Shown here: positions 47,314 to 60,701 of the stretch, one piece after another
Numbering within the stretch: the stretch's first letter is position 1
Layout: each line of letters opens with the position of its first letter
NCBI GenBank assembly: GCA_903923925.1
Contig: CAIXZF010000035.1
Location: forward strand, 434,001 to 498,000
Source: an uncultured Bacteroidales bacterium
Lineage (GTDB): Bacteria; Bacteroidota; Bacteroidia; Bacteroidales; CAIXZF01
Reading direction: 5' to 3'
DNA: 64,000 nucleotides
The notes under the pieces: generated by a model
The model's input: only the letters and a program-made list of their open reading frames with translations
Database searches by the model: none
Told to the model about the DNA's origin: nothing
Program-made: the position numbers and the translations under genes

Positions 47314-48786
47314 ATGATGAAAAAGAGACTTTTACCATTGCTTGTTCTTCTAATTGTCAGCATTTCTGACCTAAAATCCCAAACTTACGACGGGTATACA
47401 CTTTATGCAACAATGAATGGCGTTAAAGCTTATTTAATTGACATGACGGGAAATACATACCACACGTGGACTTTCGGAACGAATTTTAAAACCGGGTATT
47501 CAACGTATATGTTGCCAGGCGGAACGCTATTAAGGTCTGTTGCCCGAATGGGAAATTCATTCAATGGAGGCCCTATTTGTGGTGAAGTTCAAAAGGTTGA
47601 TTATAATGGAACTGTTTTATGGGATTATGTGTATTCAACAACTGGTTATTGTACACACCATGATATATGTGCAATGCCGAACGGGAATGTGCTGCTTATT
47701 GCATATGAGCGAAAAACAGCAGCCCAGTTAACTCAGGCTGGAGGCTCCGCCAGTTACGAAATATGGCCGGATAAAATAGTAGAAGTTCAGCCAACAGGAG
47801 CCACAACTGGCAATGTGGTATGGGAATGGCATGCCTGGGATCATCTGTGTCAGAATTACAATGCCGCAAAAGATAATTATGTAACATCAATTGTGCAGCA
47901 CCCTGAACTGCTTAATATTAACTATAATACAGCCAAAGACTGGATGCACATGAATGGGGTCGATTACAATGCAGAACTTGATCAGATTGCCTTCAGTTCC
48001 CATACATTAAATGAAATCTATGTGATAGACCATAGCACTACTACCGCTGAAGCTGCTTCACATTCCGGAGGCAATTCCGGGAAAGGTGGCGATATACTTT
48101 ACCGCTGGGGTAATCCAGCCGCTTATGGTGCATCTGGTGCAACAATTTTCAATGTAGTGCACGATGCCCATTGGGTGAGCGCAGATAATCCGCATTTCCC
48201 TAATTATTTGACGGGTTTTAATAATAAAGGAGGAGCTGGCGGAAAAACATGCGTGGATATTATTGAGCCACCTTATGACGGTTCGAACTACCTTCTGACT
48301 TTAGGATCTTCATATGCGCCAACCACTTATACCTGGCGCACAACCTATTCCGGTGCTTTTACACCCGACAACGGGAATTCACAACAGTTACCGAATGGGA
48401 ATACTCTTGTTTGTGTCGGTATGTCTGGCTACATTTATGAAGTCGATTACAATCAAACAGTGGTCTGGTCCAAAACAATCGGAGGTGTACTGGTTCATGC
48501 TTATCGATATCCCTACGATTATATTACTGGTGTTGAGGATAATACAGTCAATACAGTTGATTTAAGTTTTTATCCAAATCCTACATCGGGTCTTGTAAGA
48601 TTAAATGGTGCTGTAACGAATAAAAGTTTTGTAATTAGTGTTTTTGATTCTTTTGGAAATAATGTCCTGAAAGGATCTGACCTCACAACAATTGACCTTT
48701 CGGGCTTAAGTAACGGAGTCTACATGTTTTCTGTTAAATCAGGAGATTCTGAAATATTGACAAAAAAAATTACTTTAATTAAGTAG
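47314..48786 (+). CDS. Arylsulfotransferase-like secreted protein with T9SS tail (paralogue 1)
   Basis: 490 residues with a signal peptide (ending near LKSQ). Motifs shared with the two paralogues at 50728 and 59040: THHDICAMPNGN, DWMHMNGVDYN with IDHSTTT, GGDILYRWGNP and HDAHWV. These fit the arylsulfate sulfotransferase (ASST) family, in which an active-site histidine carries the sulfuryl group between phenolic compounds. The residues that match the E. coli enzyme's catalytic histidines were not verified. The C-terminus (SFYPNPTSGLVRL to KKITLIK) is a T9SS sorting domain. A hairpin at 48800-48826 follows. Confidence 0.75.
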   Translation: MMKKRLLPLLVLLIVSISDLKSQTYDGYTLYATMNGVKAYLIDMTGNTYHTWTFGTNFKTGYSTYMLPGGTLLRSVARMGNSFNGGPICGEVQKVDYNGTVLWDYVYSTTGYCTHHDICAMPNGNVLLIAYERKTAAQLTQAGGSASYEIWPDKIVEVQPTGATTGNVVWEWHAWDHLCQNYNAAKDNYVTSIVQHPELLNINYNTAKDWMHMNGVDYNAELDQIAFSSHTLNEIYVIDHSTTTAEAASHSGGNSGKGGDILYRWGNPAAYGASGATIFNVVHDAHWVSADNPHFPNYLTGFNNKGGAGGKTCVDIIEPPYDGSNYLLTLGSSYAPTTYTWRTTYSGAFTPDNGNSQQLPNGNTLVCVGMSGYIYEVDYNQTVVWSKTIGGVLVHAYRYPYDYITGVEDNTVNTVDLSFYPNPTSGLVRLNGAVTNKSFVISVFDSFGNNVLKGSDLTTIDLSGLSNGVYMFSVKSGDSEILTKKITLIK

Positions 48787-48799
48787 TTTTTGCCCTGTC

Positions 48800-48829
48800 A
48801 GCTTATTTCACCTGTTGAAATAAGCTTTC
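48800..48829 (+). terminator. Terminator-like hairpin after sulfotransferase paralogue 1
   Basis: A perfect 11-bp stem (AGCTTATTTCA with TGAAATAAGCT) and a 5-nt loop, followed by TTCT. The T-tract is short, so termination may be partial. It separates paralogue 1 from the downstream cluster. Confidence 0.55.
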
Positions 48830-49011
48830 TACTGATCCATATTATCCTTCTGTTGATTTCTTTTGGAGATAACATTCATGTTATACTAATATTGTTAACA
48901 ATACTCTTAAGCATGTTTCGATAATTGAATTTTCGAACTAACTAAGGGTGATGGTATTATAATGTGTATAATTTATTGAAGAATAATGATGAACATTCTA
49001 ATAATTGGATT

Positions 49012-50652
49012 ATGAAAATACTAACGTTCAAAGCTTTAGAAAAAAAATGCATTATCATCATTGGAGTTTTATTAATTCAAAACGTTTCTAACTGTCAGAA
49101 CTTCAATATTAACCAGACATTATCAGACGGAGCTCAACGTAACACTATTGCTTTTGATGGATTGGCCTTTCTGACAGGGAATTTCTGTGCATGTTCGTTT
49201 ATCCCGCCAGGTAAAGTTGCTGATTACTTTGGATTTCAGTTCCTTCGCGATAATGATCCGACTCATATGGGGCACAATACGGATTTCCTGACTGTAATAG
49301 CTAACAATTTACTCTTTGTCTTAGACAGTGCTCAACGAGAGCAAATGATAGCGTTGGCTCAAACGCAGGTCCCCCTGATCAATCAATATGGTAAATTGAG
49401 ATTTCCATTAATTGATGCTTTTGTGCGAATGCGCGACAATACAATGCCTGTGGGAAGTATAGGGCTTAACAAAGAAATTGTAAAATGTTATTCATCTGAT
49501 TTATACAGACTTGATGGAATTATTAGCTTACAACGAGCTCAATTATACGCTGGAATTATTAATTCACTGAGTTTACAACAAAGACAATATCTCGACAGCG
49601 TTTCGGGGCTTGGAATGCAGAATATGCCTGTGTTGCCGGATCAGATTGATAAAACTATAATGAGTCATAACGCTTATGTTGCGGTAATGTCTTATGCTGG
49701 CGATATTTTCGCCTGGTATGCAGGTAACATAGCTGCTGATGTATATTTTTGCCCTGAAAGGCAGGGAAATTATTTTGGTGGATTTTATATTAAAGATGCT
49801 CCAGCAATGGGGAATGCCGGTTACTCTATTGATACAAATCTCACTCAGAACGGGGGAGTCAACTTTTTGGCTGCACTCACCACTTCTCAAGCTTTACAGG
49901 TCACGGAATTGGTTGATACACAGCGAACAGCTCTGTATTCAATTGTTGACAGAAGAACAGACATTTCGTCCTTATTATGCAATTACATTTCAAATGTTCC
50001 AGTAGACACTTCCGAAATTTTAAATTTATCAGAGATTTATGGTGAGCTGGATGGTGAAATATCATACTATTACGCAACTCACTTTTCATACGTTAACTGG
50101 ACTTTAAGCACTTCACAAAGAATGGAACTGGATAGTATACGCAATCTTGATGACTATCCTTGTACTGGTGCTTACCTCTATTCTGATCCAATTGGTGCCC
50201 CGGATATTAGTGGACAGGGAACTATTGCTTTGACTCTTAACTTCAATTCGAACTGGTCTGGTGGTCCATTACTTGTTTCTGCAGAAAATTGTGCAGGTGC
50301 TTCTACTCCAAGAGATTTGAAGTTAAAAAAACAGACGCGCTTCTCTGGGATACAGAATAGACCTGATAATACAGGCTTCCAGATGTTCGAGCCAGAATTC
50401 AAAAATTCAGTTGTTCAATTATCGATTTATCCAAATCCTGCCATGGAAATTCTTAAGGTTGATTTTTCTGAGAATATTACGGCGGATGCATACATCACCA
50501 TTTCAAACCTTTATGCTCAGATTCTTTATTCTGAAAAGTTAAATTCAAGAAATGAAATTGAGATTAATCTAATGAATAGGAAACCAGGAATTTATGAAAT
50601 ACAGTTGTATTCTGATAATGAGTATTCTTCTAAGAAATTTATTATCAAGTAA
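49012..50652 (+). CDS. Conserved secreted protein of unknown function with T9SS tail
   Basis: About 546 residues from the ATG at 49012 (MKILTFKALEKK), which gives a signal peptide ending near VSNCQ. A GTG 48 bp upstream is also in frame. The body has a striking conserved-looking block (PPGKVADYFGFQFLRDNDP, then MGHNTDFL) and several LTxxQ-like helices (LTTSQALQVTELVDTQRTAL, LSTSQRMELD). A second block is MSYAGDIFAWYAGN followed by DVYFCPERQGNYFGGFYIKD. No known function was recognised. The C-terminal ~75 residues (LSIYPNPAMEILKVDF) are a T9SS sorting domain. The gene is followed by the sulfotransferase gene after 75 bp. Confidence 0.7.
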   Translation: MKILTFKALEKKCIIIIGVLLIQNVSNCQNFNINQTLSDGAQRNTIAFDGLAFLTGNFCACSFIPPGKVADYFGFQFLRDNDPTHMGHNTDFLTVIANNLLFVLDSAQREQMIALAQTQVPLINQYGKLRFPLIDAFVRMRDNTMPVGSIGLNKEIVKCYSSDLYRLDGIISLQRAQLYAGIINSLSLQQRQYLDSVSGLGMQNMPVLPDQIDKTIMSHNAYVAVMSYAGDIFAWYAGNIAADVYFCPERQGNYFGGFYIKDAPAMGNAGYSIDTNLTQNGGVNFLAALTTSQALQVTELVDTQRTALYSIVDRRTDISSLLCNYISNVPVDTSEILNLSEIYGELDGEISYYYATHFSYVNWTLSTSQRMELDSIRNLDDYPCTGAYLYSDPIGAPDISGQGTIALTLNFNSNWSGGPLLVSAENCAGASTPRDLKLKKQTRFSGIQNRPDNTGFQMFEPEFKNSVVQLSIYPNPAMEILKVDFSENITADAYITISNLYAQILYSEKLNSRNEIEINLMNRKPGIYEIQLYSDNEYSSKKFIIK

Positions 50653-50727
50653 TTCATTTTTGAAAGCGTTTATCGAATATCCCTTTTCAGAAAAAAAATA
50701 GTTAATAATTAAGTAAAAGTTGAGCAT

Positions 50728-52521
50728 ATGAAAAAAATAATCGGAATTTCCTGTCTGATACTTTTTGTAGTAAGTATCCATGCTCAGGAGTGTTTTATGG
50801 TACCAACTGAAACAAGGTACTGGGATGCAACAAATGCTTATAATGGTTATACCCTTTTTGGAACCAGAGGGTTATCCTACCTGGTTGATATGGAGGGACA
50901 TGTAGTTCATAAATGGTTGATTGGTACAAATCCAAGGTTTACTCCTGGTGGAACCATTCTTGATGCGGTAGGTGGAAATCCGAGTAATCAGAATACCTGG
51001 CGTGAACTCGACTGGGATGGGAATATTGTTTGGCAATATTCAGAAACGCGCTCAGGTTACTATCCTCATCATGATTTTGAAAAGATCTTTAATCCTAAAC
51101 TAGGAGACTCAACGTTTATTTATATTGCCAATAAAGATCTGACATCTCAACAGTGTTTGAATGCTGGCTGCGATCCGTCGCATACTTATACCGGATCTCA
51201 AATGGATGTTATTGTTGAAGTTGACATGCAGGGGAATGTTATCTGGGAATGGTCGTTCTTTGATCATGTGGTTCAGGATATTAATCCGGCATTGCCAACA
51301 TATGGCATAATTGCGAATACCCCTGGTAAAATTGATTTGAATATTCAGGGAAATCCCGTCAGGAGTGATTGGCTGCATTGCAATTCACTTGATTACAATG
51401 AAGATCTCGACCTGATAGTTGTTAACTCTGTTCACGGGGAATTTTATGTTGTTGATCATGGCAATACTTTTATTGCGAATCAGCCGGCAAATAGTATTGC
51501 TCTGGCAGCAACAAGCGCAGGGGATTTTCTATACAGGTTCGGTGATCCTGCGAAATATGACAAAGGTGATCCACCTTCAGTGATTGAGAATTGGGAGAAA
51601 GCAACAGCAGGTCACAAGCAAATAGGAGGGGCTCATAATATACAGTGGATTAAACCAGGCCTGCCTGGGGCTGGAAACTTCCTGGTTTTTAATAATGCGG
51701 AAAATCTCTTTGAACTTACACCACAATCCTATATAGTAGAAATTAATCCATATCTCAATTCTGCAGGGGTTAACACAGGGATATTTGTAAATCCACCTGA
51801 TGCCGGGTATGTAACTGTTCCTTCACCAAATCAGAATCTTATGAAGGAAAATAAAAAAGTTTCCAAACAAATAGTATGGACATATTCAAGTAAAAACAAC
51901 ACTACTTTTTACAGTACAATTGGTTCAAGTGCTCAACGTCTGCCCAATGGAAATACAATGGTTTGCTCTATGAATGATGGTCACTTTTTTGAAATAAAAC
52001 CCAGTGATACTTCATTAGTATGGGAATATATTAACCCTGTCACCCGCGATGGGGTGAAGAAAATTAAAGTTGATAATTACCCTACCTACAATGGAGTATT
52101 CAGGGCATACAGGTATGCAGCTACTCATCCTGCACTAGCAGGTCATGATCTTACTCCGGGGAATACAATTACAGCTAGTGTCCCGAATTATTATATTCCA
52201 TCTGATCTTACCTTTATAAAAGAAAATGAACCAGAGCCTTTGCCTCAGAGTATTCTGAATCAGAATTACCCAAATCCTTTTTCAGGCAGTACACAGATCC
52301 AATTTGAAATTTCTGAGTCAAAACTTATTATAATAGAAATCTGTGATTTTTCAGGTAATAAAGTAAAAACATTGATGAGTAAAACCTATCCCAAAGGGAA
52401 ATATTCATTGACATGGGACGGTACAAACGACAGTGGAACTAAAGTAGCAACAGGTGTTTACTTTTATATACTGACAGCTGATAACCAAAGAATTGCAAAG
52501 AAAATGATTCATTTTAGGTAA
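50728..52521 (+). CDS. Arylsulfotransferase-like secreted protein with T9SS tail (paralogue 2)
   Basis: 597 residues with a signal peptide (ending near IHAQ). It carries the shared motifs in diverged form: YYPHHDFEKI, DWLHCNSLDYN, GDFLYRFGDP and GAHNIQWI. Compared with paralogues 1 and 3 it has about 50-100 extra residues in the middle. The tail (NQNYPNPFSGSTQI to KMIHFR) is the FlgD-like type of T9SS sorting domain, different from the tail of paralogue 1. The next gene, the chimeric kinase/LytTR, starts 13 bp later. Confidence 0.75.
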   Translation: MKKIIGISCLILFVVSIHAQECFMVPTETRYWDATNAYNGYTLFGTRGLSYLVDMEGHVVHKWLIGTNPRFTPGGTILDAVGGNPSNQNTWRELDWDGNIVWQYSETRSGYYPHHDFEKIFNPKLGDSTFIYIANKDLTSQQCLNAGCDPSHTYTGSQMDVIVEVDMQGNVIWEWSFFDHVVQDINPALPTYGIIANTPGKIDLNIQGNPVRSDWLHCNSLDYNEDLDLIVVNSVHGEFYVVDHGNTFIANQPANSIALAATSAGDFLYRFGDPAKYDKGDPPSVIENWEKATAGHKQIGGAHNIQWIKPGLPGAGNFLVFNNAENLFELTPQSYIVEINPYLNSAGVNTGIFVNPPDAGYVTVPSPNQNLMKENKKVSKQIVWTYSSKNNTTFYSTIGSSAQRLPNGNTMVCSMNDGHFFEIKPSDTSLVWEYINPVTRDGVKKIKVDNYPTYNGVFRAYRYAATHPALAGHDLTPGNTITASVPNYYIPSDLTFIKENEPEPLPQSILNQNYPNPFSGSTQIQFEISESKLIIIEICDFSGNKVKTLMSKTYPKGKYSLTWDGTNDSGTKVATGVYFYILTADNQRIAKKMIHFR

Positions 52522-52534
52522 TATTATCAGGATT

Positions 52535-53407
52535 TTGAATATCAATAATGTTTTTCGGATTCCAGAAAACATAGTGTATGTGTTTATTTGGGCAGTTGTT
52601 TTCACTTTTCCAATATTACTTTCAACAGGAGGCGACACAATAGATTGGGTCCGGACTTCAAATGAAATTATCAGGATATTGCCCTTTTTTCTGGTTTTTA
52701 TTTTGAATAATTATTTTTTTTTCAGACTATTCAAGAAAAAAAAGATTGCTCTTTATTTTCTAGTAGTTGCTATTTCAGTATTGCTGATAAGTTTTCTGGG
52801 TTCATTTAGCCATTTGATAATAAGATTCTTACATCTTCCTGAGCTTAATAATTCTCAATCTCCAATTGATGCTTTTTTTATTTTAAACAGTGTTTTTTAC
52901 AATTTAATTTTTTCCATCCTGGTTATTGGTTTAAACACTGCAATTAAAATAAATGTAAGTTGGTTTGAACACATGAAGAACTATCAGGAACTTCAGAAAG
53001 AGAATCTCAGGAATCAATTATTACTGCTAAAAAACCAGATAAGTCCTCATTTCTTTATGAATACTCTGAATAATATTCATGCCCTTATTGATTATGACAA
53101 GGAAATAGCAAAGAATTCAGTCGTTAAATTATCGAAATTAATGAGAGTTTTATTGTATGAGGTTGATAATGAATTCATATTACTCAGAAATAAAAAATTC
53201 GTAATTACTCTAATGAGATTGAAAAATCTTGAAATGCTCTTACCCAGAGAAATAATTTTACGAGTACATAGGTCGTATATTGTTAATATTCAGAATATTA
53301 CAACTATTGAAAAAAACAGGATTGTGTTTTATGAGAATATTTACATTCCTGTATCCGATCAATATAAAGAAGGTTTTAAGGAGTTTGTCAATAGAAACCT
53401 GATTTAA
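52535..53407 (+). CDS. Chimeric LytS-type histidine kinase / LytTR DNA-binding protein
   Basis: 290 residues from a TTG at 52535. The first ~150 residues have four membrane segments. The histidine box of the LytS/YehU type follows (LKNQISPHFFMNTLNNIHAL near 167-186), and the phosphoacceptor region continues to LMRVLLYEVDNEFILL. The sequence then switches to the second part of a LytTR DNA-binding domain (KKFVITLMRLKNLEMLLP, RVHRSYIVNI, IPVSDQYKEGFKEF). The kinase ATPase domain, the receiver domain and the first LytTR strands are all missing. This is best explained by one in-frame deletion between adjacent kinase and regulator genes. The frame is intact, but neither half looks complete. Confidence 0.8.
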   Translation: MNINNVFRIPENIVYVFIWAVVFTFPILLSTGGDTIDWVRTSNEIIRILPFFLVFILNNYFFFRLFKKKKIALYFLVVAISVLLISFLGSFSHLIIRFLHLPELNNSQSPIDAFFILNSVFYNLIFSILVIGLNTAIKINVSWFEHMKNYQELQKENLRNQLLLLKNQISPHFFMNTLNNIHALIDYDKEIAKNSVVKLSKLMRVLLYEVDNEFILLRNKKFVITLMRLKNLEMLLPREIILRVHRSYIVNIQNITTIEKNRIVFYENIYIPVSDQYKEGFKEFVNRNLI

Positions 53408-53445
53408 GCAATAAATATAGAAATCTAAATAATAGAAGGTTTAGT

Positions 53446-55089
53446 ATGCTAAATAAAAAAACAACTTCCTTGATAGTACTCTTGTTCCTGACATTATGCA
53501 AATTTGTGGATGGTCAGAGTTACAATGAAATTCTGGGACGCCCTACTGATTCTGCAATCACTATGAGTATCTTGTTTGATCAGCAAGCTGAGGTGTATTG
53601 GAAATATGGTACAACTTCCGGCGTATATTCTGTAACAACTAATACTTATATTGCATCAGCTGATACAACTTTAATGGTTGATTTTTCGAATCTCATGCCT
53701 GATACGAAATACTATTACAGAACCAAATACAGATTAAATGGTTCTTCCGGAGCTTTTAACACAGGTTCCGAACATTCATTTCATACTCAAAGAGCTTTGG
53801 GAAGTACATTCACATTTACTATTGAGGCAGATGAACATTTGTGTGATATTAAAGGAGTAAGGAGTTTGTTCCAGGTATGCCTGGAAAATCAGGCTTTGGA
53901 TCAGCCTGATTTCATGTTGTCCTTAGGCGATAACTTTGGTAATGATCATAATCCAACTACGATAACCTCTAACCAATTGGACTCATTGCACAAAATGTAC
54001 CGACCTTTCTTTGGAAGTATTTGCCATTCAATACCTTTATATTTGTGTTTAGGGAACCATGAGGGAGAAAATAATTATTATTTATCACAGACACCTCCTG
54101 AAAATATGGCTGTATATGCTACTCTATGGAGAAAATTTTATTATCCGAATCCACATCCGGACAGTTTTTATACCGGTAATTTAGCTGTTGAACCTTATGG
54201 TATAGGAAATCCCGAAAATTATTATGCATGGAACTGGGGCAATGCACTCTTTGTTGTAATGGATGTATACAGAAATCAATGTGATACATCACCCAAGCCA
54301 AAAAAATGGAATTGGTCACTTGGGTTTACACAATACACCTGGTTGAAAAATACTTTAGAAAATAGTAATGCACAATACAAATTTGTTTTTGCACATCACA
54401 CCCGGGGCGAAGGAAGAGGTGGTGTAACTACAGCTCCGTTTTATGAATGGGGTGGATATGAAGCTAACGGTTCAACCTGGGGTTTCAATACGAATCGGCC
54501 GGGCTGGGCTAAACCGATACATCAGCTTTTTGTGGATAATGGCGTGAATGTTTTTTTTCAGGGCCATGACCATCTTTTCGCCCATGAGGAATTAGATGGT
54601 GTAATATATCAGGAACTGCCAATGGCCGCAGATTCCACATACAAGATTGGAATGCTTGCCAATGCGAATGCTTATGTCTCTGATACTCTTGATGGTTCTG
54701 GGCATCTGAGGGTTAAAGTTTCTCCCGACTGTGTTACAGTTGACTACATTAGGGCATATCTGGCAGCTGATACAGTTAGTGGAATTCACCATAACAGGGA
54801 AGTGGCTTTTTCGTATTCCTTCGGGAATTGTCCAACTACAGGTTTAGATGAAACAGATGATAATGTTTCCGCAAAAATATTTCCTAATCCGGCAAGTAAT
54901 AGAATAACTATTGATTTATCTGATGAAAATGGAAATTTACAGGTCAATCTATTGAATATTCTGGGACAAAGATTAGTACAAACTCAATCAACGGAATTAA
55001 ATGTAAGTAGTTTTCCAAATGGGATTTACTTTTTAAGTATTGAGACATCAAAAGGAGAAATAAAAAAGAAATTGATAATCAACAGGTAA
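53446..55089 (+). CDS. Secreted metallophosphoesterase, purple acid phosphatase-like, with T9SS tail (copy A)
   Basis: 547 residues with a signal peptide (ending near VDGQ). An N-terminal fibronectin-like domain (about 25-115) precedes a calcineurin-type metallophosphoesterase core with all metal motifs: ADEH, LGDN, GNHEGE, AHHTRG and GHDH. The T9SS tail starts at KIFPNPASNRITI. Such enzymes hydrolyse phosphomonoesters or diesters outside the cell. It is directly followed (2 bp) by a homologous gene, so the two arose by tandem duplication. Confidence 0.85.
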   Translation: MLNKKTTSLIVLLFLTLCKFVDGQSYNEILGRPTDSAITMSILFDQQAEVYWKYGTTSGVYSVTTNTYIASADTTLMVDFSNLMPDTKYYYRTKYRLNGSSGAFNTGSEHSFHTQRALGSTFTFTIEADEHLCDIKGVRSLFQVCLENQALDQPDFMLSLGDNFGNDHNPTTITSNQLDSLHKMYRPFFGSICHSIPLYLCLGNHEGENNYYLSQTPPENMAVYATLWRKFYYPNPHPDSFYTGNLAVEPYGIGNPENYYAWNWGNALFVVMDVYRNQCDTSPKPKKWNWSLGFTQYTWLKNTLENSNAQYKFVFAHHTRGEGRGGVTTAPFYEWGGYEANGSTWGFNTNRPGWAKPIHQLFVDNGVNVFFQGHDHLFAHEELDGVIYQELPMAADSTYKIGMLANANAYVSDTLDGSGHLRVKVSPDCVTVDYIRAYLAADTVSGIHHNREVAFSYSFGNCPTTGLDETDDNVSAKIFPNPASNRITIDLSDENGNLQVNLLNILGQRLVQTQSTELNVSSFPNGIYFLSIETSKGEIKKKLIINR

Positions 55090-55091
55090 TT

Positions 55092-56756
55092 ATGAAAAAT
55101 AAATTTATTCTATTTGTATTGATTCTTTTTGCATCTGGAGTTGCATCCGGTCAGAATTTCACTGAAATACTTGGCAGGCCAACAACTACAACTATTACAG
55201 TGAGTATTTTGTTTGACCAGCAGGCAGAAGTGTATTGGGAATTGGGGACTTCACCGGGAAATTATACCATAACCACTTCGACCTTCACAGCGGTTTCGGA
55301 TTCAGCATTCGAAGCTGATTTTCCAAGTTTATCTCCTAATACAAAGTATTATTATAAAACCAGATATCGTCTGGCAGGGACAAGCGGAATCTTTTTATCC
55401 GGTATAGAACATACTTTTCATACACAACGTCCAGCCGGAAGCACTTATAAATTTGCCATAGAGGCTGATCCTCATCTTGATACGAATACAAATTATAGCT
55501 CCTATACGCTAACGTTACAGAATATTCTGGCAAAGAATCCTGATTTTCTCATTGATCTGGGAGATAATTTTATGTCGGAAAAACTTCCTGTACAATCACA
55601 AACACAAAATGAAATCACAAATCGTCATCGGTTGTACAGGCCATTTTATAGTACAGCCTGTCATTCTGTTCCACTTTACCTTGTTTTAGGTAATCATGAA
55701 GGAGAAAATGGATGGTTGCTTAATGGATCAGCGAATAGCATGCCTGTGATAGCTGCAAATACGAGGAAATTATTCTATCCCAATCCTATTCCAAACTCTT
55801 TTTATTCAGGTGATACTATCCCAGAGAATTTTGTTGGACTTCGGGAGAATTATTATTCATGGGAGTGGGGAAATGCACTTTTTGTTGTCCTTGATCCTTA
55901 CTGGTACACTGTTTCCAAACCTGACTGGGGCTGGACCTTGGGAGAAGATCAATATAACTGGTATAAAAATACGGTGACCAACAGTCAGGCAAAATTCAAA
56001 TTTGTTTTCTGTCACCAGTTGGTTGGAGGCGATGGGACGAACGGCCGGGGAGGTACTGAGTTTGCGCATCTTTGGGAAATGGGAGGATATAACCTGGATT
56101 CAACATGGGGTTTTACTTCCTTTCGTCCGGGCTGGGTTAAACCAGTTCATACGATTATGGTCGAAAATAATGTAAATATTTTCTTTCATGGACACGATCA
56201 TTTTTATGGTAAGCAAGATTTAGATGGGGTTGTATATCAGGAAGTTCCTCAACCTTCATCAAAAAATATTACGAATATTTCCGGATTGCAATATGGTTAT
56301 ACGAATGGGATTTTCCTTCCGAGTCGTGGATATTTATTGGTGACTATCACAGATTCAAGTGCTAAAGTAGATTATATTCGAACCTATCTTCCCTCTGAAG
56401 AGAATACTACACGACACAATGGGGATATTGGCCATACTTACACCCTCACTTCAATAACAACTGGCCTTACAGAAAACGACGAATTTAGTGGTTTTACTCT
56501 TGAACAAAATTATCCGAATCCATTTAATCAGGAAACGACTATAAAATACCAATTACAAACAACGAATGTGGTTCAGTTAATACTGTATGATATTCTGGGA
56601 AGAGAAATCAGAACACTGGTAAACCAAAATCAAAATCCAGGGAATTATTCTGTATTCATGAAACCCGGAGAACTAAATTTAAAGGAAGGTATTTATTTCT
56701 ATAAATTGAATTGCGGAAATTATTCGAAAAGTCTGAAGATGGTTTATTACAAATAA
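55092..56756 (+). CDS. Secreted metallophosphoesterase, purple acid phosphatase-like, with T9SS tail (copy B)
   Basis: 554 residues with a signal peptide (ending near ASGQ). It is similar to copy A along the whole length up to the tail (both begin ILGRPT and contain SILFDQQAEVYW). Metal motifs are ADPH, LGDN, GNHEGE, CHQ and GHDH. The tail differs from copy A: it begins EQNYPNPFNQETTIKY, the FlgD-like T9SS type. Different tails on duplicated catalytic domains suggest tail swapping by recombination or separate evolution after duplication. Confidence 0.85.
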   Translation: MKNKFILFVLILFASGVASGQNFTEILGRPTTTTITVSILFDQQAEVYWELGTSPGNYTITTSTFTAVSDSAFEADFPSLSPNTKYYYKTRYRLAGTSGIFLSGIEHTFHTQRPAGSTYKFAIEADPHLDTNTNYSSYTLTLQNILAKNPDFLIDLGDNFMSEKLPVQSQTQNEITNRHRLYRPFYSTACHSVPLYLVLGNHEGENGWLLNGSANSMPVIAANTRKLFYPNPIPNSFYSGDTIPENFVGLRENYYSWEWGNALFVVLDPYWYTVSKPDWGWTLGEDQYNWYKNTVTNSQAKFKFVFCHQLVGGDGTNGRGGTEFAHLWEMGGYNLDSTWGFTSFRPGWVKPVHTIMVENNVNIFFHGHDHFYGKQDLDGVVYQEVPQPSSKNITNISGLQYGYTNGIFLPSRGYLLVTITDSSAKVDYIRTYLPSEENTTRHNGDIGHTYTLTSITTGLTENDEFSGFTLEQNYPNPFNQETTIKYQLQTTNVVQLILYDILGREIRTLVNQNQNPGNYSVFMKPGELNLKEGIYFYKLNCGNYSKSLKMVYYK

Positions 56757-56774
56757 TATCAAAAAATTAGTGCC

Positions 56775-59030
56775 ATGTATATTTTACCTGACAGGATGTT
56801 TATTCTTTTTATTAGTCTGGCTATAGCTGTTTCAGCTGCACAAGCACAGAAGCTTCTGCCTTTTAAATTACCTGATACTCAGCAAAGTCTAAGCTTTACT
56901 ACAACACAGGGAGAAGATGCTGATTATCTTATTAATCCACTGTCTTTTAAGGATAATGGTGATGGAACTATAACAGATAATGTCACAGGGTTAATGTGGC
57001 AGAAAACTGATGGTGGTGAAATGACCATTGAAAATTCGACAACGTATTGTAACAATCTTACTTTGGCAGGGTATTCCGACTGGCGACTTCCAACTGGCAT
57101 GGAGTTGTTTAGTATAAATCACTATAATCACCTTAATCCGGCATTAGACACTGTTTATTTTACAAAAACGCTGGCGGAGTATTGGTGGACCAGCGAAAAA
57201 AGGTTTGATGATCAGACTAAAATATGGGCTGTTAATGCAGGTGGAGGTATTGGAGCTCACCCTAAATCTGAAACACTAAGTGCTGGTGGTATCAAGAGAT
57301 TCCATGTAAGAGCTGTCAGAAATCTGTATTCAACAACATTCACAGTTTCTCACTTTACAGACAATGGTGATGGAACAATTTCAGATAATTTTACAGGACT
57401 TATCTGGCAGAAAGTACTGCCAACAAATGCGATGAACTGGGAAGCAGCCCTGCTTTACGGCAATAGTCTATCATTGGCCGGTAAAGCAGATTGGCGACTT
57501 CCAAATATTAAGGAGCTTCAATCCCTGAATGATGTAAATCAGATCAATCCATCTTTCAGCAATAGTTTCTTCTCCAATTTGGCTGTTGGGAATTACTGGT
57601 CATCAACTACTCTTCAAAATACAAATACAAAAGCCTGGGATATTAATACGATGTATGGTATAGTTTCATACAACGATAAAACGATACAGGAACATGTTAT
57701 ACTTGTTAGAGGAGGACTTGATAATTTGTATTTGAATATAAATGAAGTGCAAATCCCGGGAGGAGAATTTGTGATGGGAGATCATTTTGGTTTTGTAGAT
57801 CCAAACCATCCAAGTGATGAAATTCCTCTTCATACTGTAAAAGTCGACTCTTTTATTATTACGAATACAGAAACTACTAATCAACAGTTTCTTGCGTTTC
57901 TGAATTCTGCCTTATTAAGTGGTTCAATTCATGTTCAGAATAATATTGTTTACAATATTAGCGACACAAACAGGATCTGTTTTACCAATCAGTTTGCTCC
58001 GTATTACAGTATTTCTTACAATGGCACATCATTTACTATGGCTGATTTCAGGGCAAATCATCCGATGGTTGGAGTGATGTGGATAGGAGCTGCAGCTTAT
58101 TGTAATTGGCTTAGCCAGCAGAATGGTTTACAAGAATGCTATAACACGGTGACCTGGAACTGTGATTTTTCTAAAGATGGTTATCGCCTTCCCACTGAAG
58201 CCGAATGGGAATATTCTGCTAGGGGAGGTCATTTAAACCCATACTTCAATTATCCTTGTGGTGATTCTGTAATTCTGAATCAGGCTAATTTACCAGCCTC
58301 TGGTGACCCTTATGAATCAGGGTCTAGTCCGAATACCACACCAGTTGGTTTTTATGATGGGACACTAAAGCAGAAATCTGACTACAATTGGCCAGGTTCT
58401 GCAACTAATTACCAGACTTCGAATGGTGAAAACTCATATGGTCTATTTGATGTTCAGGGTAATGTATGGGAATTTGTTAATGATTGGTACGGGCAAAATT
58501 ACTACAGCCAGAGTCCATATAACAATCCTCAGGGTCCTGTTTCCGGATTTATTATGCCTGATGGGAAACCATACAGAGGAATGCGTGGGGGGAATTGGTA
58601 TAATGGATATACAATTAATGGCGTAAACGATGGCCATTCAAGGGTTTCCAACAGGAATCCTTCCTACTACCGCGGGCCTCAGGATCCAAATCATCCATGG
58701 TACCATGTTGGTTTCAGGATTGCGAGAAATTTAGTGGCAACAACTGGAATAGGAGATAATACTCCTGAAAATATTCAATTTATTCAAAATTATCCGAATC
58801 CATTTACAACTGGCACAACAATCTCATTTACACTGCAAAAAACTGAGAATGTAAAACTTACAGTATTTAATATCCTTGGTAAGGAGGTTGCACAATTAGT
58901 AAATGAACACTTGAATTCAGGTAAATACAATATCCAATGGAGATCAATTGATTTTCCAGGAGGTATTTATACATGTAAACTACAGATTGACAAACAATTT
59001 TCAACAATAAAAATGATTTTAGTAAAATAG
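56775..59030 (+). CDS. Secreted DUF1566 x2 / sulfatase-modifying-factor-like protein with T9SS tail
   Basis: 751 residues. The signal peptide ends near AQAQ. A start at 56796 would give a shorter one. Two DUF1566 (Lcl-like) domains follow, both with DNGDGTI, TGLMWQK or TGLIWQK, and DWRLP (about 55-185 and 194-315). A formylglycine-generating-enzyme-like C-type lectin fold spans about 325-655 (IPGGEFVMGD, RLPTEAEWEYSARGG, DVQGNVWEF, RGGNWYNG, GFRIAR). The cysteines that hold copper in true formylglycine-generating enzymes are not seen in the RGGNWYNG region, so it is probably not an active FGE. The tail is FlgD-like T9SS (QNYPNPFTTGTTI). Confidence 0.82.
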   Translation: MYILPDRMFILFISLAIAVSAAQAQKLLPFKLPDTQQSLSFTTTQGEDADYLINPLSFKDNGDGTITDNVTGLMWQKTDGGEMTIENSTTYCNNLTLAGYSDWRLPTGMELFSINHYNHLNPALDTVYFTKTLAEYWWTSEKRFDDQTKIWAVNAGGGIGAHPKSETLSAGGIKRFHVRAVRNLYSTTFTVSHFTDNGDGTISDNFTGLIWQKVLPTNAMNWEAALLYGNSLSLAGKADWRLPNIKELQSLNDVNQINPSFSNSFFSNLAVGNYWSSTTLQNTNTKAWDINTMYGIVSYNDKTIQEHVILVRGGLDNLYLNINEVQIPGGEFVMGDHFGFVDPNHPSDEIPLHTVKVDSFIITNTETTNQQFLAFLNSALLSGSIHVQNNIVYNISDTNRICFTNQFAPYYSISYNGTSFTMADFRANHPMVGVMWIGAAAYCNWLSQQNGLQECYNTVTWNCDFSKDGYRLPTEAEWEYSARGGHLNPYFNYPCGDSVILNQANLPASGDPYESGSSPNTTPVGFYDGTLKQKSDYNWPGSATNYQTSNGENSYGLFDVQGNVWEFVNDWYGQNYYSQSPYNNPQGPVSGFIMPDGKPYRGMRGGNWYNGYTINGVNDGHSRVSNRNPSYYRGPQDPNHPWYHVGFRIARNLVATTGIGDNTPENIQFIQNYPNPFTTGTTISFTLQKTENVKLTVFNILGKEVAQLVNEHLNSGKYNIQWRSIDFPGGIYTCKLQIDKQFSTIKMILVK

Positions 59031-59039
59031 GAGGGACCA

Positions 59040-60701
59040 ATGAAGAAAGTTAAAAGTGTAGTACTGATGCAGATATTTGTAGCATTCGCATTTACAGGAA
59101 TAACATTTGGACAAACACAAACAGTTGGTTTGTTTTTAAGTGATACAGCTCAGGTTTGTGATGGGTATACTTTATTTGCACCCAAACACAATACTATGAC
59201 TTATCTGATTAATAATGAAGGCCGTAAGATTCATGAATGGTCAAACAGCACTTATCCTCCGGGACAAACGGTATACCTTCTTGAAAATGGTAACCTCTTG
59301 CGCGCCTGTATGATACCTGGACAATTAGGTACAGGAGGAGGAGAAGGCGGCCGGATAGAGGAATACACCTGGAATGACAGCCTGGTTTGGTCAATGAATT
59401 ATGCCACTACAACATACATGCAGCATCATGATATCAAAAAGCTCCCTAACGGGAATATTATAATGCTTGTTGTGGAGAAAAAGATGATGTCGGATATTTT
59501 AGCTGCTGGATTCGATACAACTGATTTTCAACCTGAAGTACAGCAACATGGCTTTATGCTTCCCGATGCTGTTATAGAAATTCAGCCAACATATCCTTCG
59601 GGTGGAACAGTAGTGTGGCAATGGCATGTATGGGATCATCTTATCCAGGAATTTGATGCTACAAAGTTGAATTATGGAGATGTAAGCGTCCATCCTGAAC
59701 TGATTGATGCTGCTGGAGATCATAAAAAGTTACCACTTTTCTGGAATCACATGAACTCCATTGACTATAATCCTGCATTTGACCAGATTGCTGTTAGTGT
59801 GAGGGGCAACAGTGAGGTTTGGATAATTGATCATAGCACAACAACTTCACAGGCGGCAGGGCATACAGGCGGTACCCATGGAAAGGGTGGCGATTTATTA
59901 TACCGCTGGGGTAACCCGATTACGTACGGTGCAGGAACTGCCAATGATCAGAAGTACTATCAGCAACATGACGTAGAGTGGATTAAACCTGGGAATCCAG
60001 GAGCTGGAAATCTTACCTGCTTCAACAATGGTGCTAATCTAATGTACTCAACGGTTGATGAAATAGTGCCTCCTGTTGATTTGAACGGGAATTATACTTA
60101 CGTGGCCGGTTCGGCATATGGACCGCAAAATTTTACATGGACTTATCAGGCGACACCTCCAACGTCCTTCTATTCCGAAAATATTTCAGGTGCGCAACGA
60201 TTACCCAATGGGAATACAATTGTTTGCGAAGGGGCACATGGTAACTTCATCGAAGTAACACCAAATCACAATGTAGTATGGAAATATCTTTGTCCAGCTG
60301 ATGCAAACGGACCCTTAACTCAGGGAAATGTAATACCAAATGATCCTACACATCCCGGAGAATTTATGAATGCCGTTTTCAGGGTTTATAAGTACGATCC
60401 TTCCTATTCTGCATTTACTGGTAAGGTGCTAACCCCGGGGAATTTCATAGAACTTTATCCCGCAGGGATTAATGAAACCAAAGAAGTAAAGTATATGGTT
60501 TACCCTAATCCTTTCGTCAATACTATTTCCATCAGGAATTCATCGGGCAATGAGGAATATCTGCTAATAAACGCTATTGGTCAAACTCTTTGGTCGGGGA
60601 AAAATATTGAAAAACAGGATTTTAGCTTCCTGCCTAAAGGAATTTATAGTTTGCTGGTTTATGATCAGGAAACAGTGTCTACGCTTAAGTTAATTAAGTG
60701 A
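59040..60701 (+). CDS. Arylsulfotransferase-like secreted protein with T9SS tail (paralogue 3)
   Basis: 553 residues with a signal peptide (ending near TFGQ). Shared motifs: YMQHHDIKKLPNGN, WNHMNSIDYN, IDHSTTTSQAAGH, GGDLLYRWGNP and QQHDVEWI. It is closer to paralogue 1 than to paralogue 2 in the central region. The short tail (KYMVYPNPFVNTI to TLKLIK) is a T9SS domain. It is the last gene of the plus-strand cluster, 9 bp after the DUF1566/FGE-like gene and convergent with the alpha-2-macroglobulin gene. Confidence 0.77.
   Translation: MKKVKSVVLMQIFVAFAFTGITFGQTQTVGLFLSDTAQVCDGYTLFAPKHNTMTYLINNEGRKIHEWSNSTYPPGQTVYLLENGNLLRACMIPGQLGTGGGEGGRIEEYTWNDSLVWSMNYATTTYMQHHDIKKLPNGNIIMLVVEKKMMSDILAAGFDTTDFQPEVQQHGFMLPDAVIEIQPTYPSGGTVVWQWHVWDHLIQEFDATKLNYGDVSVHPELIDAAGDHKKLPLFWNHMNSIDYNPAFDQIAVSVRGNSEVWIIDHSTTTSQAAGHTGGTHGKGGDLLYRWGNPITYGAGTANDQKYYQQHDVEWIKPGNPGAGNLTCFNNGANLMYSTVDEIVPPVDLNGNYTYVAGSAYGPQNFTWTYQATPPTSFYSENISGAQRLPNGNTIVCEGAHGNFIEVTPNHNVVWKYLCPADANGPLTQGNVIPNDPTHPGEFMNAVFRVYKYDPSYSAFTGKVLTPGNFIELYPAGINETKEVKYMVYPNPFVNTISIRNSSGNEEYLLINAIGQTLWSGKNIEKQDFSFLPKGIYSLLVYDQETVSTLKLIK

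Follow-up and report, generated by a model that had tools for sequence, protein, structure and literature searches.

An in-frame fusion of a LytS-type kinase front end and a LytTR domain within a secreted-enzyme operon of an uncultured Bacteroidales bacterium

In the 64,000-nucleotide stretch of Bacteroidales DNA analysed here (the window), one open reading frame joins the membrane front end and dimerisation region of a LytS-type kinase to the DNA-binding domain of a LytTR regulator, and this fusion is confirmed as real in the assembled sequence. As judged from sequence comparison, it probably arose by a single deletion in a LytS/LytTR pair of the operon where it lies, leaving a presumably membrane-anchored product that looks slightly more like a young remnant than like a working regulator. 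The features concerned are as follows.

50728..52521, + strand: arylsulfotransferase-like protein with a T9SS tail, upstream operon gene
52535..53407, + strand: fused gene, 290 aa, TTG start (Pfam: His_kinase and LytTR)
52556..52951, + strand: kinase membrane front end, aa 8-139, four long hydrophobic helices (alignment to intact kinases; AlphaFold2 helices)
53015..53188, + strand: LytS-type His_kinase dimerisation region, aa 161-218, with the histidine box QISPHFFMNTLNNIHALI (PF06580)
53048..53050, + strand: His172, the conserved phospho-acceptor position (invariant column of the kinase alignment)
53156..53191, + strand: crossover zone, aa 208-219, matching both the kinase and the LytTR parent (alignment; intact-pair comparison)
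53156..53386, + strand: LytTR domain, aa 208-284, with the RVHRSYIVN core (aa 243-251) kept (PF04397; alignment; AlphaFold2 strands from 207)
53446..56756, + strand: two calcineurin-like phosphoesterases with T9SS tails, downstream operon genes

The in-frame fusion of a LytS-type kinase to LytTR, proposed in the first-pass annotation, is borne out by the domain content. The His_kinase match covers model positions 2-60 of 81 with 50.6 bits and E 2.3e-13, and the LytTR match covers model positions 15-96 of 98 with 50.4 bits (cut-off 22.6) and E 2.7e-13; both clear their cut-offs by a wide margin, and two independent matches at E about 1e-13 within one reading frame rule out chance. As also claimed, the frame is open and belongs to the secreted-enzyme operon: its 290 codons contain no internal stop, and the gene is set among T9SS-tailed neighbours, with the ASST gene 13 bp upstream and a phosphoesterase gene 38 bp downstream. 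Translation would begin at the TTG, the first in-frame ATG being found not before aa 147. In the front part AlphaFold2 places helices at 8-29, 38-67, 71-100 and 113-168, and the protein thus combines predicted membrane segments with a DNA-binding domain, as is required of a transmembrane transcription regulator (TTR). The supposed lack of ATPase and receiver domains holds as well, since the Pfam check for HATPase_c and Response_reg is empty down to E=10, and no Pfam match to an MHYT domain is seen in the fused protein; phosphorelay signalling by this protein is excluded. As for the tail, a LytTR domain is indeed present as had been stated, but model positions 1-14, roughly its first two strands, are missing, so that the DNA-binding domain begins late.

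In alignments with intact kinases and regulators of relatives, the fused protein is kinase-like to about LLYEVDNEFILLRN and LytTR-like from about KKFVITLMRLKNLE, and because residues 208-219 match both parents the crossover is placed there. About 45 intact pairs from relatives agree with the expected arrangement of LytS/LytR genes, namely adjacent and with the kinase first; nearly all of them are overlapping, usually by a few bases, or adjacent, and the lost segment that they imply measures 866-905 nt in most cases and 960-1390 nt in a few that have a spacer. The single deletion of about 1 kb supposed at first therefore fits in kind, but its size is rather about 0.9 kb and the start of LytTR was removed with it; by this comparison one in-frame deletion would be enough. 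Between the two crossover regions of the intact pairs there is no microhomology beyond 8 bases. Directly seen are the domains present, the place where they join, the length of segment that should have been lost and, in sister operons, pairs that are not fused. From these we suggest that an adjacent LytS/LytTR pair within the secreted-enzyme operon underwent a single in-frame deletion of about 0.9 kb, which would have taken the ATPase domain of the kinase, the receiver domain of the regulator and the first strands of the DNA-binding domain. The product would be anchored in the membrane and dimerise through the kinase helix bundle; beneath the membrane it would carry a LytTR domain shortened at its N-terminus, which may bind DNA, and it is unable to autophosphorylate or to take phosphate on a receiver.

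The operon itself merits attention. The neighbours of the fused gene encode T9SS-tailed secreted enzymes, namely an arylsulfotransferase-like protein, calcineurin-like phosphoesterases and an FGE-sulfatase/Lcl_C protein, and such an operon is present in many further Bacteroidota contigs, as well as in two relatives without a LytS/LytTR pair. Nine other contigs carry unfused LytS/LytTR genes inside the operon, with intact pairs in L139, L144, L146, L160, L161, L163 and L171, a pair that runs off the contig in L162 and, in L140, the regulator end only; where these genes lie in the operon varies among the nine contigs, and none has them at the position of the fusion. In 15 other operon contigs an ECF sigma factor is found instead, mostly together with a Spy-like protein, and some contigs, often short ones, have neither regulator type. 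The sigma factor and LytS/LytTR never occur together in the operon contigs read (L131-L171 and L185, set against window positions 47314-60701), and the window operon (47314-60701) has the fusion only, with neither an unfused pair nor an ECF sigma factor. Two further observations concern the upstream genes. For a 562-aa protein at 48964-50652 Pfam finds a T9SS tail only, and its relatives at 43-55% identity occur near several LytS/LytTR-type operons and some others; relatives of the arylsulfotransferase-like protein at 50728-52521 (loci L168-L209, 38-63% identity), often with the same neighbours, come from MAGs labelled Verrucomicrobia, Lentisphaerae, Chloroflexota, Ignavibacteria and Proteobacteria, and from one labelled archaeal.

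Unfused pairs, which were to be looked for at this locus in relatives, thus occur in the same operon, but at other positions and not as the closest kin by the tree. There the fusion joins the pairs of L106 and L085 (support 88), and two clades of operon pairs stand separately. As the pairs embedded in the operon are not its nearest kin, LytS/LytTR pairs seem to have entered this operon on more than one occasion. An L139-type or L161-type operon pair was considered as the parent and is unsupported, because the tree puts these types apart from the fusion.

Other fusions were sought with a profile of in-silico kinase-to-LytTR chimeras (A2; the chimeras served as profile only) in 393 genomes of the order, 395 of the phylum, 395 of the class and 2 of the family, the sets partly overlapping. 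Both halves of the profile were covered only by the fused gene, at 237.5 bits, while the next match, at 136.1 bits, is an intact regulator; no second fusion was found among about 1,200 genomes, at thresholds under which fusions of distant LytS subfamilies could fall. In 58 relatives from the order the matches listed are all unfused kinases or regulators, normal in length; a scan of the contigs of close relatives with the fusion sequence alone gave no match, and the plasmid search returned unfused pairs or single halves only. Being seen in a single genome among about 1,200 others, the fusion is lineage-specific as far as seen. Two loci met on the way are worth recording. At G380:C299:33767-34015 an in-frame TAG lies in a LytTR regulator whose neighbouring kinase is intact; this may be another decaying regulator or a sequencing error. 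At L129:966-8187 (G040) stands the intact pair whose kinase is the best BLAST match to the front half of the fusion, and it adjoins a TonB-receptor-like protein and two T9SS-tailed, Lcl_C-like proteins, again a secreted-protein context.

The two halves were then compared for constraint. By root-to-tip lengths, which are approximate (47-sequence tree, midpoint rooting, 80 columns), the kinase half stands at the 36th percentile of the 47 sequences and is not accelerated, while the LytTR half stands at the 98th percentile, with the largest value of all. Highly conserved positions are kept at 31 of 36 in the kinase half and at 22 of 30 in the LytTR half, where seven of the eight changes are conservative by BLOSUM62. 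The lost LytTR strands, the eight changed sites and the longest root-to-tip length point to relaxed constraint and, together with the TTG start, speak for a remnant. About 4.7% of random substitutions in the fused frame would create a stop, and the probability that an open frame survives neutrally is 0.13 at 5% divergence and 0.017 at 10%, values so low that any neutral decay must be young. As far as the sequence tells, the fusion is either young or constrained in its frame, and the data fit both. For its fate we lean, by a modest preference, to a young remnant in early decay, which could nonetheless persist as a LytTR protein tethered to the membrane. Against the remnant, the open frame, a codon usage the same as that of the neighbours, the unaccelerated kinase half and the conservative LytTR changes fit continued function, and a plausible fate, if short of probable, is that of a decoy or of a membrane-tethered regulator that works without phosphate.

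In a more specific form, such a protein would be a one-component regulator in which the four-helix membrane part senses and the kinase bundle transmits by dimer rearrangement, a proposal that we hold doubtful; that its LytTR part would bind DNA near the operon without phosphate is doubtful to the same degree. The open frame, the kinase half under normal constraint and the conservative LytTR changes count for it, sister-genome operons keep a LytS/LytTR pair or a sigma factor, and membrane-bound LytTR proteins have precedents in CoxC (PMC11347149) and the Bacteroides LRS-like proteins (PMC6193735). It also draws on the structure model. With an alignment of LytTR homologues supplied, AlphaFold2 folds aa 207-290 in the manner of LytTR (from aa 221 on, the mean pLDDT of each block is 81-95), with the kinase-derived LYEV and EFIL modelled as replacement strands at lower confidence, and VIA-align of the model (about aa 192-290) matches 3d6w with Z 12.2, ComE 4cbv with 10.5 and AgrA 3bs1 with 9.8. 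With kinase homologues only, however, the tail becomes low-confidence helices. Because the fold depends on the alignment supplied, a LytTR fold of the tail is possible in the model, which is not proof that it forms. Moreover the first two LytTR strands are missing, the fusion occurs in a single genome only, and the operon intergenic regions contain no clear LytTR direct repeats, LytTR-like repeats there showing no excess over shuffles. That kinase-derived residues replace the missing strands in a functional membrane-tethered, phosphate-independent LytTR regulator is, on the whole, unlikely.

The genome itself contains intact paralogous pairs, the nearest at C2:15562-17279, with a kinase 34-36% identical. 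With this pair at hand and its own dimerisation region intact, the fused protein might act as a dominant-negative partner that dimerises with the C2 kinase or occupies the sites of that system and so dampens it, but heterodimers are doubtful at about 35% identity, and we consider this role improbable. In the assembly no orphan LytS-type ATPase is found, as each of the eight matches belongs to a kinase that has a His_kinase domain itself; no leftover LytTR-type receiver is seen, those present being part of regulators that also match LytTR, and the missing segment is not seen displaced elsewhere. The LytTR half is unlike all others found in this genome, so it is not a join to another copy. An assembly artefact, by which about 0.9 kb was dropped from an intact pair of the true genome, is thus highly improbable even for a draft of 117 contigs, since the drop would need to keep the frame and to hit the two genes at almost corresponding positions, and would have to agree with the lack of an orphan ATPase or leftover receiver and with so distinct a LytTR half. 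Elsewhere in the same genome, a LytS-type kinase at G000:C24:5213-5575 has no LytTR match on its contig, and a LytTR regulator at G000:C15:41120-41803 has no LytS match on its contig.

Compared with canonical LytS/LytR systems (BtsS/BtsR, LytSR), to which both halves are homologous, the fused protein has neither ATPase nor receiver domain and is one protein instead of two. Among its closest parallels is Rsp of Neisseria gonorrhoeae, which PMC6528607 and PMC10269533 (the latter citing Carrick 2000) describe as a two-component remnant formed by fusion of the adjacent kinase and regulator genes nps-npa, of PilS/PilR type; reports on its effect on pilin expression disagree. Like Rsp, the present gene is a single reading frame in which a kinase's membrane front is followed by the DNA-binding end of the neighbouring regulator, and the operon in relatives contains pairs that are not fused, though at other positions and not the closest by tree. 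Unlike the LytS/LytTR parents here, those of Rsp are of the RpoN-dependent PilS/PilR type. On the side of function, CoxC of Afipia carboxidovorans has been shown experimentally to be a working membrane-bound MHYT-LytTR repressor (PMC11347149); it is likewise a membrane-anchored LytTR protein without a receiver domain, but its sensor is MHYT, which the fused protein lacks, and it is not derived from a LytS kinase. The LRS-like LytTR proteins of Bacteroides have several transmembrane segments and are paired with an NfeD/DUF2154 membrane protein (PMC6193735). They too belong to Bacteroidia and have transmembrane segments ahead of LytTR, but no histidine-kinase region is reported for them, and the fused gene has no adjacent membrane inhibitor gene, its neighbours being T9SS-secreted enzymes. 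A LytS-LytTR deletion fusion was not found in the open-access papers searched, which is weak as evidence of absence. If it is a remnant only, the case is an ordinary instance of regulator loss. Membrane-bound transcription regulators have been proposed to derive from two-component systems (PMC10269533), and the present case unites a gene fusion of the Rsp type with a membrane-bound LytTR protein, namely as a LytS/LytTR deletion fusion; as both states exist in one operon context, the intact pair in sisters and the fusion here, the transition between them would be directly testable.
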